From assembly GCF_007752535.1 (NCBI RefSeq), contig NZ_CP036426.1:8370001-8434000 (forward strand): 64,000 nucleotides of DNA, written 5' to 3'. Made by a program: the position numbers and the translations under genes. Source of the DNA: Tautonia plasticadhaerens (lineage in GTDB: Bacteria; Planctomycetota; Planctomycetia; Isosphaerales; Isosphaeraceae). The notes under the pieces are model-generated. The model did not search any database, was not told the origin of the DNA, and worked only from the letters and a program-made list of their open reading frames with translations. Of the stretch, positions 36,041-43,252 are shown in pieces. The stretch's first letter is position 1. Every line of letters begins with the position of its first letter.

Positions 36041-38439
36041 ATGCCGGGACATCGATCGGTCGCCCCCCGGGGCGACCTGGACACGCTGTTTCGCCTGGGG
36101 GTGATGGGCGACTGGCCCGACTCCCGACTGCTGGACCACTTCGCCTCCCACCTCGACCCCTCCGGCGAGGCCGCCTTCGAGGCCCTCGTCCGGCGCCACG
36201 GGCCGACGGTCTGGCGGGTCTGCCTCGGCCTGCTCCGGGACCCCCACGCCGCCGAGGACGCCTTCCAGGCCACCTTCCTCGTCCTCGCCCGGCGATCGGG
36301 TTCGATCCGGAACCGGGACTCCGCCTCGGCCTGGCTCTGCGGGGTCGCCCGCCGGATCGCCCTCCGATCCCGCCTCGACGCCTCCCGGCGACGCTCCCGG
36401 GAACGGCTCGCCGCCCGGCCCGAGGCCGAGCCCGAGGCGCCCCGGGACTCCCACGAGGCCCTGCTCCAAGAGGTCGACCGCCTGCCCGCCCGCTACCGCC
36501 TCCCGGTGGTCCTGCACGACCTCGGCGGCTGCCCGTACGACGAGGTCGCCCGACGGCTCGGCTGCCCGATCGGCACCGTCAAGGTCCGCCTCTCCCGGGC
36601 CCGGGCCCTGCTCCGACGCCGCCTGACCCGCCGAGGGCTCAGCCCCTCGACCGCGAGCCCGCCCCCGGCCCTGCCCGTCCCCCTTTCCGCCGCCCTCGCC
36701 GACCGCACCGTCCGATCGGCCGTCTCCCTCGGCCTGGGCCGGACCGCCCTCGACGCCCTGCCGCCCGCCGTCTCCGCCTCGGCCCGATGGATGCTCAACG
36801 CCATGATCCTCTCCCAGCTCAAGGCCGCCGCCGCCCTCGTCGCCGGCACCCTGCTCCTGGCCACCGGCGCCGGGCTCGTCGTCGCCTCGCAGGAATCGGG
36901 TACGCCGCCCCCGGGAAACACCCCCTCGCCTCCGGTCGCCGCCTCCCCCGCTCCCCCCGTCACTCGGTCCCACCCCTGGCGTCTCCCCGCCCCGCCGCCC
37001 GAGGAGATCGAGCGTCGCGTCCTGGAGGTCACGGCCGACCTCGACGACCCCTACGACCGGGCCGAAATCCTCCTCAGCCTGGGGCGTGCCCAGCTCCGCC
37101 GCGGCCAGCCCGTCGAGGCGCTCGACACCCTCCGCGCCGCCCGCCTCGCGGCCGAGCAGATCCCCCGCGAGGCCCAACTCACCGGCCAACATCCGATCGC
37201 CCGCATCGCCGCCGCCCAGGCCGAGGCCGGCGACCGCGACGCCGCCCTCGACACCTTCAGCAAGGCCGCCGAGGTCGTCTCCTCCCTGGACGAGGAAGGG
37301 CAACTCCGGAATTGGGGCGGATTGATGCGGGTCTGGCTCGATTCGGTCGGGCGGGCGATCTCCGCACCGCCGCCGACGCCTATGCGGACTTCCTGTTGCG
37401 TCGTCAACAACTCACGCCGAACAAGCTCGTCGAGATCGAGGCGATGGCAGGCGACTTCGCCGAGGCGCTGCGGATCCTCAGGGAATCGGAGGCGTACCGG
37501 AGAGCCAATGGCGATGCGAATCGGACGAACGCCCTGCTCCAGGTCGCTGGCGCCCTCTTGCCCGATGATGCACAGGCCGACGAGAGCCTCACCGAGACGC
37601 GGGACGCGATCCTCTCGAACTCCTGGGGGCCCGGCACCCGGTTCTGGGATCTCACGAGGCTTGCCGAGATCCAGTCCCGCCTCGGCCGGTTCGACGACGC
37701 CCGGGCGACCATCGCGCTCGCCCCCCCTCGGACCGACGGCGGCGACCTGTTCAATTTGGCCCGCGTGTTCGTCGACCTGGCCGAGCGGCAGGCGGCCGAA
37801 GGGGGCCGGGCCGGGGCCCTGGACGCGGTGGATGACACGCTCCGGGTCGTCTCGACGATCGAGGGTCCGGATTACAAGTTCACCCCCCTCTCACGGGCGG
37901 CCAAGCTGCTGCTTTCCCTGGGCGAGGTGGAGCGGGCCGAGGCCGTGATCGGCCGGCTCGCCGAACATGGCATCGAAACGTCCTCCTGGATCGAGCAACT
38001 CGCCGAGGCGAAACGGGAGGCCGGGGACGACGACGACGCCCGGGCCGACCTGCGACGCGCCCTCGAACTGGCCGAGGCCCGTCTCCGCGACCTCATCGCC
38101 GCGCCACCGGAGCCTGCTCGCGACGACCTGCCGGGATACGCCTTCTACGTGACGACCGTCGATCCCCTGTCCCAGGCCGCCGCCGATGTCGTTCGCATCC
38201 ACCTCAAACTCGGCGACCTGGAGGCGGCCTTCCGCACGATCGACGCCCTCCCCGACGGCACCCGGCAAGACGCCCTCCCCGCGATCGCCGCGACCTTCGC
38301 CGCCCGGGGGGAACTCGACACGGCCTGGGGGCTCGTCGAGGAGATCGACTCCCCCGAGGCCCGCAGCCGGGCGATCGTCCGGGTCGCCCTCGAACGGCCG
38401 GCGGAGGCGGCAGGCGACCCGCCGGCCGATCCCGAGTGA
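36041..38439 (+). CDS. ECF sigma factor fused to membrane helix and TPR-like repeats (frameshifted)
   Basis: About 799 residues if one base is restored. Sigma region 2 is at residues 45-125 (FEALVRRHGPTVWRVCLGLL; DAFQATFLVLARR) and region 4 at about 150-195 (LPARYRLPVVLHDLGGCPYD; GTVKVRLSRARALL). A membrane helix follows near 265-290 (LKAAAALVAGTLLLATGAGL), then helical repeats to the end (ALDTLRAARLAAEQIP; LGDLEAAFRTIDALP). This is the ECF type with long C-terminal extension known from Gemmata-like planctomycetes. The frame breaks at GGGG 37314-37317; one extra G restores RNWGRIDAGLARF. Probably a sequencing error, otherwise the repeats are lost. Confidence 0.8.
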
Positions 38440-38534: not shown

Positions 38535-39413
38535 TCAGAGGACGAAGGACAGCTTGCGGCGGTAGTCGGCCACGAGGGGGTCGTCGGGGGGGAGGAGGTT
38601 GAAGAGGGCGAGCATGGTCTGGCGGGCCTGCTCGCCGACGCCGCGGCGGTCGCGTTCGACCAGGTCGAGGCAGGTCGCCAGGGCCTCCTCGTGCTGGCCG
38701 GCGGCGGCGAGGGCCTCGGCGAGGCGGTACCGGGCGGGGAGGTCGTCGGGGTGGGACTCTGCCTCGGCCCGGGCGGCGGCGAGGTCGCCGGCGTCGGCGG
38801 CGGCGAGGTCGAGCGCGAGGCGGGCCTTGACCGCCTCGGCCTCGGGTTCGAGGAAGCCCCGGCGTTCCAGGGCTGCGACCTCGGCCCGGGCCTCGTCGAG
38901 CTTGCCTTGCCGTTCCAGCGCGCCGGCCAGGCCGATCCGGGCCTTCGGCAGCTTGGCGTCGAGCCCGAGGGCCTCGCGGTAGCGGGCCTCGGCGGCGGCG
39001 GGGTCGGCGTCCTCCAGGGCGGCGGCCTCGCCGCAGAGGACCTCGGCGGGGGAGGGCATGAGGCGGTCGAGCCACTGGCGGATCATCGCCTCGGGTTGGA
39101 CGCCGACGAAGGAGTCGACGATCCGGGCGTCCCGCAGGCCGAAGACGGCGGGGATGCCCTGGACGCCGAAGGCCGAGGCGACGTCGCCGAGCTGCTCGGT
39201 GTCGGCCTTCACCAGGACGAACCGGCCGTCGTACTCCCGGGCCAGCTTCTCCAGGACCGGGCCGAGCATCCGGCAGGGGCCGCACCACTCGGCCCAGAAG
39301 TCGACCACGACGGGGACGGACTTCGACCGCTCGATGACCTCCTGCTCGAAGCCCTCACGGGTGGCCTCGATGATGACCCGGGGCGTGTCCTTGTCGCTCT
39401 GGGACGTGTTCAT
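38535..39413 (-). CDS. Thioredoxin-TPR co-chaperone-like protein (CnoX/YbbN type)
   Basis: A 292-residue protein. The thioredoxin domain spans residues 10-125 and has an intact WCGPC redox site at 43-47 (VVDFWAEWCGPCRMLGPVLE) and the cis-Pro region GIPAVFGL. It is followed by about four TPR-like helical pairs to the end (AEARYREALGLDAKLPKARI; ARYRLAEALAAAGQHEEAL). This architecture matches CnoX/YbbN, which protects and hands over oxidised or unfolded clients to chaperones. The start at 39413 is the only sensible ATG. It is convergent with the sigma-factor gene. Confidence 0.9.
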   Translation of the reverse strand: MNTSQSDKDTPRVIIEATREGFEQEVIERSKSVPVVVDFWAEWCGPCRMLGPVLEKLAREYDGRFVLVKADTEQLGDVASAFGVQGIPAVFGLRDARIVDSFVGVQPEAMIRQWLDRLMPSPAEVLCGEAAALEDADPAAAEARYREALGLDAKLPKARIGLAGALERQGKLDEARAEVAALERRGFLEPEAEAVKARLALDLAAADAGDLAAARAEAESHPDDLPARYRLAEALAAAGQHEEALATCLDLVERDRRGVGEQARQTMLALFNLLPPDDPLVADYRRKLSFVL

Positions 39414-39803: not shown

Positions 39804-40664
39804 TCAGTCCCCCTCGGGCAGGTCGGCGGCGCCGGTGGACTCGAAGCGCTTGACCAGGGTGACCTCGTTGCCCTTGTCGTTGTAGCGGAACTCGTCGACG
39901 AGGCCCCGGGCGAGCATGATGCCGAAGCCGCCCTCGCGGATGCCCAGCTCGTTGCGGACGTCGAGGTGGGCGATCGGGTCGTCGGCCTGGGCGGCGTGGG
40001 GGATGTGGCCGGGGTCGAAGCCGGGCCCCTGGTCCCGGATGATCAGGGTGACGTTGTCGGACTCGATCCGGTAGGTGATCCGGAGCGTCAGCTCGGCGTT
40101 CTTGCGGTGGCCCCACTCGATGGCGTTGGAGCCCATCTCCATCACGGCCTGCTTCAGATCCTTGATCTGCCGCTCGGTCAGGGGGGTGCGGACGTAGAGG
40201 TCCGTGAGCATGTCGTTCAGCTCGGCGAGGTAGTCCGTCTCGCTGCGGATGTCGAACTCGATCTCGCCGGCGGTGCCCCGGGTCATGTGCTCCTCCCGCC
40301 AGGCGAAGGCCCGGTCCATCACCTCGAAGAGCTGGTCCGGGGTGAAGGGCTTGGTCAGGTATTCGTTGGCCCCCACGCGGACGCCGTGCACCCGGTCGTG
40401 CTCGGAGTGCAGGGCGGTGACCATGATCACGGGGATCAGGTTGGTGGCCCGCCGCCGCTTCAGCCGGGCGCAGACCTCATAGCCGTCGACGTCGGGCAGC
40501 ATCACGTCGAGCAGGATCAGCTCCGGGTCGTGTTCCGCGACGGCGGGGAGCACGGCGCCGCCGTCGAAGACCTGGACCGGCCGGTCGCTTCGGGCCTTGA
40601 CGAGCCCGGCCATCAGGTCGTTGGCGTCGCGCTCGTCGTCGACGATCAGCACGGTGCGCGGCAT
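39804..40664 (-). CDS. Response regulator with RsbW-like ATPase domain
   Basis: A 286-residue two-domain regulator. The receiver domain (1-120) has the acidic pair in IVDDERD, the phospho-acceptor Asp53 in ILLDVMLPD and Lys105 in EYLTKPF. The second domain is a GHKL ATPase of the RsbW type: MGSNAIEWGHRKN (N box), IRDQGPGFDP (G1) and EGGFGIMLARGLVDEF (G2). It has no phospho-acceptor His and is likely an anti-sigma or serine kinase controlled by receiver phosphorylation. The ATG at 40664 is preferred over the GTG two codons earlier. It is divergent from the ExbB gene. Confidence 0.88.
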   Translation of the reverse strand: MPRTVLIVDDERDANDLMAGLVKARSDRPVQVFDGGAVLPAVAEHDPELILLDVMLPDVDGYEVCARLKRRRATNLIPVIMVTALHSEHDRVHGVRVGANEYLTKPFTPDQLFEVMDRAFAWREEHMTRGTAGEIEFDIRSETDYLAELNDMLTDLYVRTPLTERQIKDLKQAVMEMGSNAIEWGHRKNAELTLRITYRIESDNVTLIIRDQGPGFDPGHIPHAAQADDPIAHLDVRNELGIREGGFGIMLARGLVDEFRYNDKGNEVTLVKRFESTGAADLPEGD

Positions 40665-40904
40665 GGGCACGCGGTCCCCGACTTCGGGCCTCGGACAGAC
40701 GGGCGGTCATTGTCGCGCGCCGGTCGGCCCGAAGCAAGGCGCAGGCCCGGGGGGGTCTTGCCCCGGCGCGCCCCCCCATCCAAGAATAAGACACCGGATC
40801 GCCCCCGGCCACCGCCCCCGGGCCCCGGCCGGGCCGAATCCACCGCCCTGCCCCGCCGGGCCGCTCCCGAGCCGACCGACCGACCGATCGACCCGAGGCC
40901 GTGC

Positions 40905-41627
40905 ATGGACATCTCGCTGCTGCTGACGATCATCGGCTACGCGATCTACGTGGCCCAGGCCCTGCTCGCCATCTGGGGCATCTACAACTCGGTGATGGTC
41001 TACCGGGGCCTGGGGAAGCGTTCCCTCGACGACGCGAGGGCCGGCCAGCTGCTGGACCAGGTGGCCGCCCTGGTCGGCAAGGCCGGGCAGACGAGGGAGG
41101 CGATCGACCTCTGCAACCGCCCCCCCTACTGGCACACCACGCTCGCCCAGCTGGTGACCGTGGGCTTGCAGAACCTGAAGCGGGGCCTGGCCAAGATCAA
41201 GCAATTGCTGGTGATGGAGTTCCACACCCGGGTGATCTCGGCGATGGAGAACCGGCTGGCCTCGGTGGTCACGGCGGCGAAGCTCGCGCCGCTGCTGGGG
41301 CTGCTGGGGACGGTCATCGGCATGATCGGCGCCTTCGGCAACGTCGGCGCCGGGGAGCGGACCGCGGATCCCGGCAGCCAGCTGGCCGCCTCGATCGCCC
41401 TGGGCCTGTGGACGACGGCCGTCGGCCTGATCATCGCCTCCCCCCTGATGCTGCTGGCCAACGACCTGCAGGGCCGCCTCCGGCTGCTCCGGGACAACAC
41501 CGAGCGGCAGCTCCAGGGCTTCCTCGAATTCCTCGAGCAGGAGGAGGCCCGCCGCGCCCCCGAAGGGCGGGGCGCCCCCTCCCCGCGGGCCGGCTCCGGC
41601 TCCGTCCGGGCCGTCCTGCCCCGGTGA
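40905..41627 (+). CDS. MotA/TolQ/ExbB proton-channel family protein
   Basis: A 240-residue inner-membrane protein. One helix is at residues 5-28 (LLLTIIGYAIYVAQALLAIWGI), and two more flank the conserved loop: LAPLLGLLGTVIGMIGAF and ASIALGLWTTAVGLIIASPL. The TVIGMIGAF and LWTTAVGL motifs are typical of TolQ/ExbB proton channels that energise outer-membrane processes. It is the first gene of a set with two ExbD-like genes at 71 and 75 bp spacing. No TonB or TolA partner is in the window. Confidence 0.9.
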   Translation: MDISLLLTIIGYAIYVAQALLAIWGIYNSVMVYRGLGKRSLDDARAGQLLDQVAALVGKAGQTREAIDLCNRPPYWHTTLAQLVTVGLQNLKRGLAKIKQLLVMEFHTRVISAMENRLASVVTAAKLAPLLGLLGTVIGMIGAFGNVGAGERTADPGSQLAASIALGLWTTAVGLIIASPLMLLANDLQGRLRLLRDNTERQLQGFLEFLEQEEARRAPEGRGAPSPRAGSGSVRAVLPR

Positions 41628-41698
41628 GGGCGAGGGCGGGGACGAGGACGACGCGGCCCCTCCCGATCGACTGAGACTCGACCGAGGCGACCGATCCC

Positions 41699-42139
41699 AT
41701 GCTGCTGCAACGCCAGGTCCGCTCGCCGCTGGACAGCGCCATCGACCTGACGCCGATGGTCGACGTGGTCTTCCAGCTGCTGATCTTCCTGATGCTGACC
41801 TACCGGGCCTCGGCCGAGGCCGAGGTCGAGCTGCCCCCGGCGGCCTACGGCACCGGGGTGGAGGAGACCCGGGCCACGACCCTGACGCTCGCCCCCCGGC
41901 CCGGCGGCCCGGTCGCCGTCTTCTCGGGCATGAGCACCGACCCCGTCGACCGGCTCGACGACCCGGAGGACATCCGGGAGGCCGTCGCCGCCGGGGTCCG
42001 CAACGGTCGACGGCGGGTGATCCTCCAGGCCGACGGTGCCGTCCCCCACGGAGAGGTCCTCCGGGTCGGCTCGATCGTCGCCGAGGTGGAGGGGATCGTC
42101 CTCCACCTCGGCGTCGAGGACGCCGAGCAGGGCGACTAG
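41699..42139 (+). CDS. ExbD/TolR-family protein
   Basis: A 146-residue protein with the standard ExbD architecture: a short cytoplasmic N-terminus, one helix with the proton-path Asp (DLTPMVDVVFQLLIFLMLTY; Asp at VDVVF) and a periplasmic domain (VILQADGAVPHGEVLRVGSI). Second gene of the ExbB-ExbD-ExbD set. ExbD proteins form the dimer within the ExbB pentamer. A good match in length and motif to the family. Confidence 0.9.
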   Translation: MLLQRQVRSPLDSAIDLTPMVDVVFQLLIFLMLTYRASAEAEVELPPAAYGTGVEETRATTLTLAPRPGGPVAVFSGMSTDPVDRLDDPEDIREAVAAGVRNGRRRVILQADGAVPHGEVLRVGSIVAEVEGIVLHLGVEDAEQGD

Positions 42140-42214
42140 CGGGCCCGGCTCGCCGTCCGCCCGCCCCTCGCGATCGCCCCCGAACCCTCTCGACTCCTGC
42201 CGACCCGGGAACCC

Positions 42215-43252
42215 ATGGCCAACTGGGACATCTTCCACACCGATCGCCTCCGGCTCGAAACCGGCCTCGGGGCCGAGGCCGTCCGGGAGGGGATCGCCTC
42301 GGGGGCGATCCGGCCGGATGACCTGGCCCGGCCGGCCGGGACGGACGAGCCCTGGGCCCGGGTCGACGCCCGGGGAGCACTGCTCTCCCCCGAGTCGACG
42401 GGCCAGCCGGGCGGGGGCGAGGGCGAGGGCGCGGGAGATCGGTCGGGGCCCGTCGTCGAGGAGGCGGGCATCCTCGACGACGAGCCCGCCCTCGAAGCCC
42501 AGTTCGCCCCCGAAGACGAGGAGGATGACGAGCCGATCGACCTCGACGACGACCTCGAGCCGACCGGCCAGGTCCCCGACCTTGACGAGGAGCGGACCGT
42601 CGAGCTGCGACGGGCCCCCGCCGATCCCCGCCCCGACGACCCCGAGCCGGACGACTGGGACGAGCTGGTCGCCGCCGCCGGGGGCTCGATGCCACCCCCC
42701 GCCTCGTCCTGGGCCGACGCCCCCCCCGTCGCCGTCGAGGACGCCCACGCCTTCCCCCCCCTCGACGAGCCCGAGGCCTTCGACCCCCTCGACGAGGACG
42801 AGGAGGCCGCCGCCTTCACCCTCGCCGCCGAGCCCCCCTCCGAGCCCGACGAGATCGACCTGACGGCCATGGTCGACGTCGCCTTCCAGCTCGTCCTCTT
42901 CTTCCTGGTGACCGCCACCACCATCTACTTCAAGACCCTGGAGATCCCCACCCCCGAGCCCGACGAGCAGGAGGCCGTCGCCCAGCAGATGCGCACGCTC
43001 GACGAGCTGCTGGAGGAATACATCCTCGTCGAGATCGACCCCCAGGGCCGGGTCCAGGTCGACCGCGAGCCCATCGCCCCCGACGAGCTGACCGCCCGGC
43101 TCCGCCAGGTCCGCTCCGACACCTTGCGCACCGGCATGCTCCTGATGGCCGACTTCGCCACCCCCCACCGCAACGCCGTGCTCGCCATCGACTCGGCCAA
43201 CGCCATCGGCCTGGAGATCGCCATCGCCAAGCCGTCGGCACCGACCGATTAG
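42215..43252 (+). CDS. ExbD-like protein with a long acidic N-terminal extension
   Basis: A 345-residue ExbD homologue. The ExbD core starts only near residue 208 (EIDLTAMVDVAFQLVLFFLV), with the family Asp, and a periplasmic part follows (YILVEIDPQGRVQVDREPIA). The first 200 or so residues are unusual: residues 1-50 (MANWDIFHTDRLRLETGLGA ... GAIRPDDLARPAG) look like a small Trp-containing GYF-like module, then about 150 residues of Asp/Glu/Pro-rich linker. The cytoplasmic extension could bind partners. It follows the standard ExbD gene by 75 bp and likely pairs with it. Confidence 0.85.
   Translation: MANWDIFHTDRLRLETGLGAEAVREGIASGAIRPDDLARPAGTDEPWARVDARGALLSPESTGQPGGGEGEGAGDRSGPVVEEAGILDDEPALEAQFAPEDEEDDEPIDLDDDLEPTGQVPDLDEERTVELRRAPADPRPDDPEPDDWDELVAAAGGSMPPPASSWADAPPVAVEDAHAFPPLDEPEAFDPLDEDEEAAAFTLAAEPPSEPDEIDLTAMVDVAFQLVLFFLVTATTIYFKTLEIPTPEPDEQEAVAQQMRTLDELLEEYILVEIDPQGRVQVDREPIAPDELTARLRQVRSDTLRTGMLLMADFATPHRNAVLAIDSANAIGLEIAIAKPSAPTD

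Follow-up and report, generated by a model that had tools for sequence, protein, structure and literature searches.

An ExbB-ExbD trio of Tautonia plasticadhaerens with two unlike ExbD proteins, one bearing a divergent GYF_2-like module

Introduction

Ton (ExbB-ExbD) and Tol (TolQ-TolR) are energizing proton motors, and in the 5:2 complex of the former five ExbB subunits surround two ExbD helices (PMC9389320). How a cell switches its 5:2 motors from within, positions them and sets their direction is largely an open question. The present work concerns three consecutive genes, encoding an ExbB and two ExbD proteins (ExbD1 and ExbD2), in the planctomycete Tautonia plasticadhaerens (genome of 9.4 Mb, coded G000). 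The genes occupy positions 40905-43252 of a stretch of 64,000 nucleotides (nt) from contig NZ_CP036426.1 (C1:8370001-8434000), called the window, to which all positions refer unless a contig is named. The trio shares with the Ton and Tol systems the Pfam families, the Asp of the ExbD helix and the Thr motifs of ExbB. It differs from them by its two unlike ExbD proteins and by the lack of a detected TonB_C domain in the genome.

The closest working analogy to the trio is the gliding motor of Myxococcus xanthus. The Agl-Glt machinery contains one ExbB-type protein together with AglQ and AglS, both MotB homologs; whether these two form a heterodimer or homodimers is stated as undecided, and the GltJ component resembles TonB (PMC9389320). 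MglA acts on AglR and GltJ (PMC12288465). As in the trio, one ExbB-type protein is thus combined with two ExbD-type proteins. AgmX, which we take to be GltJ, bears a GYF domain solved as 7z3c, and a 2024 study by Attia is said to deal with GltJ. The GYF domain of GltJ is cytoplasmic and stands on a TonB-like protein, whereas the module of the trio stands on the ExbD itself.

A tolQ-like gene with two different tolR-like genes is also described in planctomycetes. Clusters of the Planctomycetes-Verrucomicrobia-Chlamydiae (PVC) group have the order tetratricopeptide repeat (TPR) protein, tolQ-like gene, two heterologous tolR-like genes and von Willebrand factor A (vWA) transducer, and the section describing them mentions no cytoplasmic module (PMC12204202). 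The unlike ExbD pair is therefore not new. These clusters differ from the trio in their surroundings: beyond the trio and a receiver-ATPase gene, no neighbour cluster is common to more than 13 of the 33 loci compared here (antisense frames entered the clustering and were disregarded), and no TPR or vWA neighbour stood out among these clusters, whose members were not scanned singly for vWA. GYF pairs occur in other planctomycete proteins (PMC7159879) and a Bdellovibrio protein has a GYF-like cytoplasmic domain (PMC12034629). Literature searches for ExbD with GYF, and for GYF_2/DUF4339 in planctomycetes, returned no description of a GYF-ExbD fusion, and within the literature searched the GYF-bearing ExbD appears to be new.

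The ExbB-ExbD1-ExbD2 trio

The three genes lie head to tail on the + strand, separated by gaps of 71 and 75 nt. ExbB (40905-41627, ATG at 40905, 240 residues) is an ExbB/TolQ-type proton-channel subunit. It matches PF01618 (MotA_ExbB, E = 6.7e-20) with 71.6 bits against a cut-off of 22.9, and its closest solved chains in the PDB are TolQ (4.1e-7) and then ExbB (0.0015). ExbD1 (41699-42139, 146 residues) is an ordinary ExbD/TolR-type subunit with about 14 residues before the core, whereas ExbD2 (42215-43252, 345 residues) is an ExbD/TolR-type subunit with an N-terminal extension of about 200 residues. Both exceed the PF02472 cut-off of 25.4 bits (55.2 bits and E = 9.8e-15 for ExbD1; 65.6 bits and E = 5.8e-18 for ExbD2), and in ExbD2 the Pfam domain is confined to residues 211-335. 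A first-pass annotation, made from the letters of the window alone, had reported an ExbB gene with two ExbD genes, one of them extended. This observation is confirmed: coordinates and reading frames are borne out and Pfam supports all three proteins. The same annotation placed the start of the ExbD core of the third protein near residue 208, close to the Pfam boundary.

The trio is no chance arrangement and is conserved within the family Isosphaeraceae. The order holds one family in the genome set, so that a search of the family is also a search of the order. The ExbD2 gene is present in 39 of 45 family genomes, the six misses being all at most 85% complete, and in all 26 genomes with a completeness of 90% or more and a contamination of 5% or less. 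The comparison covers 33 loci, namely the window and 32 fetched from the 38 other positive genomes, and the contiguous trio with its extension is kept in every one. Relatives without the extension, or with the third gene away from ExbB, were the patterns that the first-pass annotation had named as speaking against it, and neither is seen. The two pore-Thr motifs of ExbB are both matched by regular expression in 32 of the 33 loci; the short N-terminus of ExbD1 is found in all listed loci, as are its MVD motif with the proton-carrying Asp (31/33 by a stricter expression) and the helix motif of ExbD2, which includes the proton-carrying Asp.

Every Ton, Tol and Mot equivalog of NCBIfam listed for the trio scores below its cut-off: ExbB reaches 37.9 and 22.7 bits for exbB (cut-offs 135.35 and 206.2) and 48.1 bits for tolQ (221), and ExbD1 reaches 22.2 and 15.1 bits for exbD (152.95 and 216) and 31.9 bits for tolR (127.3), a model for which ExbD2 obtains 19.3 bits. 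No ExbD equivalog is listed for ExbD2 in the NCBIfam scan.

The N-terminal extension of ExbD2

From the N-terminus, ExbD2 consists of a GYF_2-like module (residues 1-57, 42215-42385), an acidic linker, rich in Pro and variable in length (residues 58-197, 42386-42805), a short FTL box directly before the membrane helix (residues 198-213 with F201-T202-L203, 42806-42853), a transmembrane helix with an Asp221 that is invariant in the alignment of 31 sequences (42854-42937, codon 42875-42877), and an ExbD domain predicted from its family to be periplasmic (42938-43249, Pfam ExbD to residue 335). Of the 147 residues from 61 to 207, 47 are Asp or Glu, 22 are Pro and 5 are Arg, in agreement with the long Asp/Glu/Pro linker noticed at first reading. 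The best PDB match of the ExbD2 profile is an unrelated protein (0.24), followed by TolR (0.61); in this weak match residue 7 of TolR aligns with profile position 211, which leaves about 200 extra residues in ExbD2. The N-terminus of ExbD proteins is cytoplasmic, and the extension is accordingly predicted to lie in the cytoplasm.

The alignment of ExbD2 (A2) contains the window and 30 of the 32 fetched relatives, L035 and L062 being omitted as close relatives. Residues W4, D5, D36 and R39 of the module are invariant. The mean pairwise identity is 52% in the module, 26% in the linker, 43% in the box region and 64% in helix and core, and the FTL box follows a loose F/I/V/L-T/S-L/F motif in 31/31 sequences. 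Among all 33 sequences, the linker as delimited for this count varies from 93 to 244 residues, always with a negative net charge (-7 to -73), and the distance from the start of the module to the ExbD helix motif ranges from 167 to 318 residues (median 228). A module that is conserved while its linker drifts is the pattern expected of a tethered domain. The start of the protein is also consistent: the residue aligned to Met1 of the window is M, V or L in 29 of 33 sequences, and a start codon opens 27 of the 31 alignment rows at this site. AlphaFold models, which are not taken as evidence and were not fold-searched, place a helix at residues 216-241 with low confidence. Some family members (e.g. 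L049 and L059) have recurrent short linker motifs such as DVAFPVL and SRLALPVVxSRD, which loose expressions match in 12 and 16 of the 31 sequences.

Identity of the N-terminal module

The module was scanned in 26 of the 33 family loci, with seven close relatives omitted and E <= 5, and 18 of the 26 match PF14237 (GYF_2; best E = 2.4e-6). When eight family modules are scored one by one, seven match GYF_2 at 12.6-22.1 bits (cut-off 25.8), all in one register, with module residues 18/19 to 55/56 on profile positions 13/14 to 49/50. Profile-profile comparison agrees: the profile of the family modules (A1) matches a profile of accepted GYF_2 domains (A7; 19 domains, taken from eight genomes within the class) at 96.0% (E = 4.6e-9, 40 columns). 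The profiles of the modules from the first and second ExbD slots outside the family (A3 and A4) match A7 at 95.7% and 93.5%, and A1 at 98.8% and 96.7%. The unrelated control set (A8) gives 0.35%; it was cut by coordinates from ExbD1 and has seven rows, one of which (L043) is out of frame. The best PDB match of A7 is AgmX (7z3c, 1e-11), the GYF protein of the Myxococcus machinery, followed by GRB10-interacting GYF proteins 2 and 1. At family level the module is, by these sequence comparisons, a divergent GYF_2-like domain. It shares with the GYF_2 family homology at profile level and a constant register, and it differs by scores below the Pfam cut-off wherever bits were seen, by a missing Gly-Pro turn in modules of the window type and by the fusion to ExbD. 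Ribosomal L25, the best PDB hit of the module profile (E = 0.22), is taken as a chance match.

Occurrence outside the family and phylogeny of the ExbD proteins

Of the 158 genomes available for the class, 59 contain matches to the A1 profile, and 28 of these belong to other families. Twenty outside loci were inspected, from 19 of the 28 genomes (two places in G049). In nineteen of them an ExbB is followed by two ExbD proteins with such a module, whereas L121 holds a different GYF_2-like protein. The module is present on both ExbD proteins in 16 loci (families f3 and f8) and on the second alone in L104 and L122 (families f4 and f6). In L103 (f6) it is on the second, with a weak one on the first (A1 profile, E = 0.0029 among eight sequences), so that L103 is probably a seventeenth locus with both. 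The f3-type ExbD proteins have shorter linkers and retain their modules.

The outside-type profiles A3 and A4 match in 68 and 50 of the 158 genomes, family members included. An A4 match lies 662-1019 nt away in 35 of the 39 A3-positive outside genomes; the others are G146, with A4 on another contig, G087, G052 and G049. No f2 or f5 genome is among the A1 or A3 matches of the class search, and A4 has partial matches in f2, inside long other frames. In a sample of 195 genomes of the phylum, A3 is found in the window's own genome alone. This sample evidently holds few or no positive families, and it bounds the spread loosely. Among viral contigs there are 78 pattern matches and no relative.

A tree of 62 ExbD cores covers 16 of the 33 family loci, 10 of the 16 f3/f8 loci, the three f4/f6 loci and five ExbD proteins of the window's genome; ExbD1 of L038 was dropped (no motif) and L117 omitted (long branches). 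Family ExbD1, family ExbD2, the f3/f8 first slot and the f3/f8 second slot are each recovered as a clade with bootstrap values of 96-100. A further clade (97/74) unites the second-slot proteins with a module from all groups. Since the slots are separate clades across groups, they are probably old, separately inherited lineages kept adjacent, and the unlike pair is probably old.

A candidate transducer gene stands beside nine of the 19 outside cassettes (L103, L104, L106, L108, L112, L115, L117, L120 and L122), convergent downstream in six f3 loci, whereas in L103, L104 and L122 it lies upstream and is co-directional; L104 is a weaker member. The layout is TonB-like, combining a single hydrophobic helix at the N-terminus (by eye) with a stretch rich in Gly and Pro and a C-terminal domain that is conserved, and six members scanned have no Pfam match at E <= 1. 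Four of eight aligned members have S-x3-H in the helix, which may be reminiscent of the conserved motif and His in the helices of TonB and TolA (PMC12204202).

Proposed mechanism and alternative explanations

The preferred reading, to which a probability of about 0.58 is assigned, is that the trio encodes a 5:2 proton motor in which the two ExbD chains differ and one of them carries a cytoplasmic GYF_2-like docking arm. ExbB would form the pentameric channel of a Ton/Tol-type proton motor, and ExbD1 and ExbD2 would provide its inner pair, in the simplest case with one copy each; a heterodimeric core is plausible on sequence grounds. ExbD2 would hold the module in the cytoplasm on a long, flexible, acidic tether. 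The module would probably use a peptide motif to dock a partner in the cytoplasm or the membrane, and this docking may set the activity or the location of the motor from inside the cell. The periplasmic ExbD domains would act on the cell wall or on a force transducer. The interpretation given in the first-pass annotation is, overall, partly supported.

Several observations weigh against this reading. The module of the window has itself no Pfam GYF_2 match, either in the full-protein scan or in the module scan; the early guess of a GYF-like module is borne out at family level. No individually scored member reaches the PF14237 cut-off, and among ten full-length module-bearing ExbD proteins from inside and outside the family, GYF_2 is found at E <= 0.1 in three (14.6-17.3 bits). 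The module profile has no convincing match in the PDB and does not match AgmX (7z3c) directly. The Gly-Pro turn of GYF_2 stands at the ligand face. It is invariant in the 19 A7 domains, absent in the module of the window and not conserved in A1, for which reason the module is classed as divergent, classical binding of proline peptides is not assured and the ligand is not to be assumed. The tempting ligand, the short C-terminal tail of ExbB (41550-41627, ...SGSVRAVLPR), ends in VLPR or LLPR in just 11 of 33 family loci and is absent from several others, and it is rejected as a general answer. TonB_C (PF03544) has 0 matches in the window genome, while three of the 14 genomes used as controls, E. 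coli among them, give a match; the search for a TonB-like partner, suggested at first reading, thus found no such domain, and the candidate transducer of the outside type is found neither in the window nor in the fetched family loci. In the tree, the grouping of second slots reaches just 74 by the Shimodaira-Hasegawa-like approximate likelihood ratio test (SH-aLRT), and the first-slot row of L103 falls elsewhere, on a long branch. AlphaFold from two sequences, the window and the Tautonia sociabilis locus (L031), gives a predicted local distance difference test (pLDDT) score of 55 for the module and 44 for the whole ExbD2.

Among the alternatives, the one that survives best is that two separate homodimeric motors share one ExbB, with the arm on the ExbD2 motor only. 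This is a real, if minority, possibility: the choice between hetero- and homodimer is open even for AglQ/AglS of Myxococcus (PMC9389320). Against it, both slots adjoin one ExbB in 33/33 family loci and in 19/19 outside cassettes, which fits an obligate pair.

The negative charge of every linker and the FTL box before every aligned helix would also suit an acidic extension that mainly caps the cytoplasmic mouth of the channel by entropic or electrostatic means, acting as gate or proton antenna, with a module that merely shapes or anchors it. Such a cap is unlikely, since the linker drifts in sequence and length while the distal module is conserved, and since the f3-type proteins keep their modules despite shorter linkers.

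More doubtful still is a switch in which a receiver-ATPase binds the arm and turns the motor on or off upon phosphorylation. The gene (39804-40670, - strand) encodes a receiver plus HATPase_c_2 protein of 288 residues (Response_reg, 2.3e-23; HATPase_c_2, 3.1e-23), which the first-pass annotation had placed next to the trio and suggested as a possible controller. It is a conserved neighbour that starts 234 nt upstream of ExbB in the opposite direction, across the intergenic region 40671-40904 (234 nt by open reading frame coordinates). Of the 33 loci, 32 extend far enough to show this neighbour (L062 is cut short), and it is there, divergent, in 24 of them from 14 genera, a linkage approached by no other non-trio cluster, and an N-box-like motif is found in 24/24 and DxGxGF in 23/24. 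Adjacency stands, whereas control of the motor is a weak proposition: the strict receiver-Asp motif is found in just 17/24, and the gene is not adjacent in eight loci (six of g18, and g4 and g15), where an ortholog with 67-71% identity lies elsewhere in each genome, less than 20 kb away in the case of G028 and G005. None was detected in the 20 loci inspected outside the family.

A conventional Tol or Ton energizer whose extension is mere decoration without functional importance is very unlikely, as the PF01618 and PF02472 cores are recognizable in all three proteins but the module is conserved across the family and recurs in others, and all the listed NCBIfam Ton and Tol cut-offs are missed.

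A wider proposal is tentative and, taken whole, rather improbable. Several planctomycete families might share a class of envelope motors composed of ExbB, a fixed pair of unlike ExbD proteins, cytoplasmic GYF-type modules and, in some families, a transducer that lacks Pfam matches; such motors might be steered by docking, like the Myxococcus gliding motor, and power a process other than TonB import. For the window itself, the trio is a candidate motor for planctomycetes in a genome without a detected TonB_C domain, and it makes the intracellular control of such a motor testable. An ExbD with a conserved cytoplasmic module, in a probably asymmetric pair, is a defined handle: once the ligand is found, the route of control follows.

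Other genes of the region

PADLOC models, applied to four proteins, give no support for an anti-phage system, Zorya or other, and a weak Specificity_I match of ExbD2 (1.7e-4, 31 residues) is taken as chance. Five other ExbD proteins are recognized by Pfam in the window genome, without such a module, four of them in two tandem pairs; the two further sets of ExbB with tandem ExbD, also without module, lie at G000:C1:1287304-1288260 and 3732370-3733304 (L123 and L124). Within the window, an ECF-sigma-like frame (36041-37948) overlaps a TPR-like frame (36787-38439), both named from reading the translations. This arrangement (36041-38439) resembles a frameshift near 37390 and has no homolog in L031-L033. 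A thioredoxin-like protein with TPR-like repeats, recognized from its translation, is encoded at 38535-39413 on the - strand, downstream of the receiver-ATPase gene; it is also present in L031-L033, at a distance of 3-5 kb in L032 and L033.

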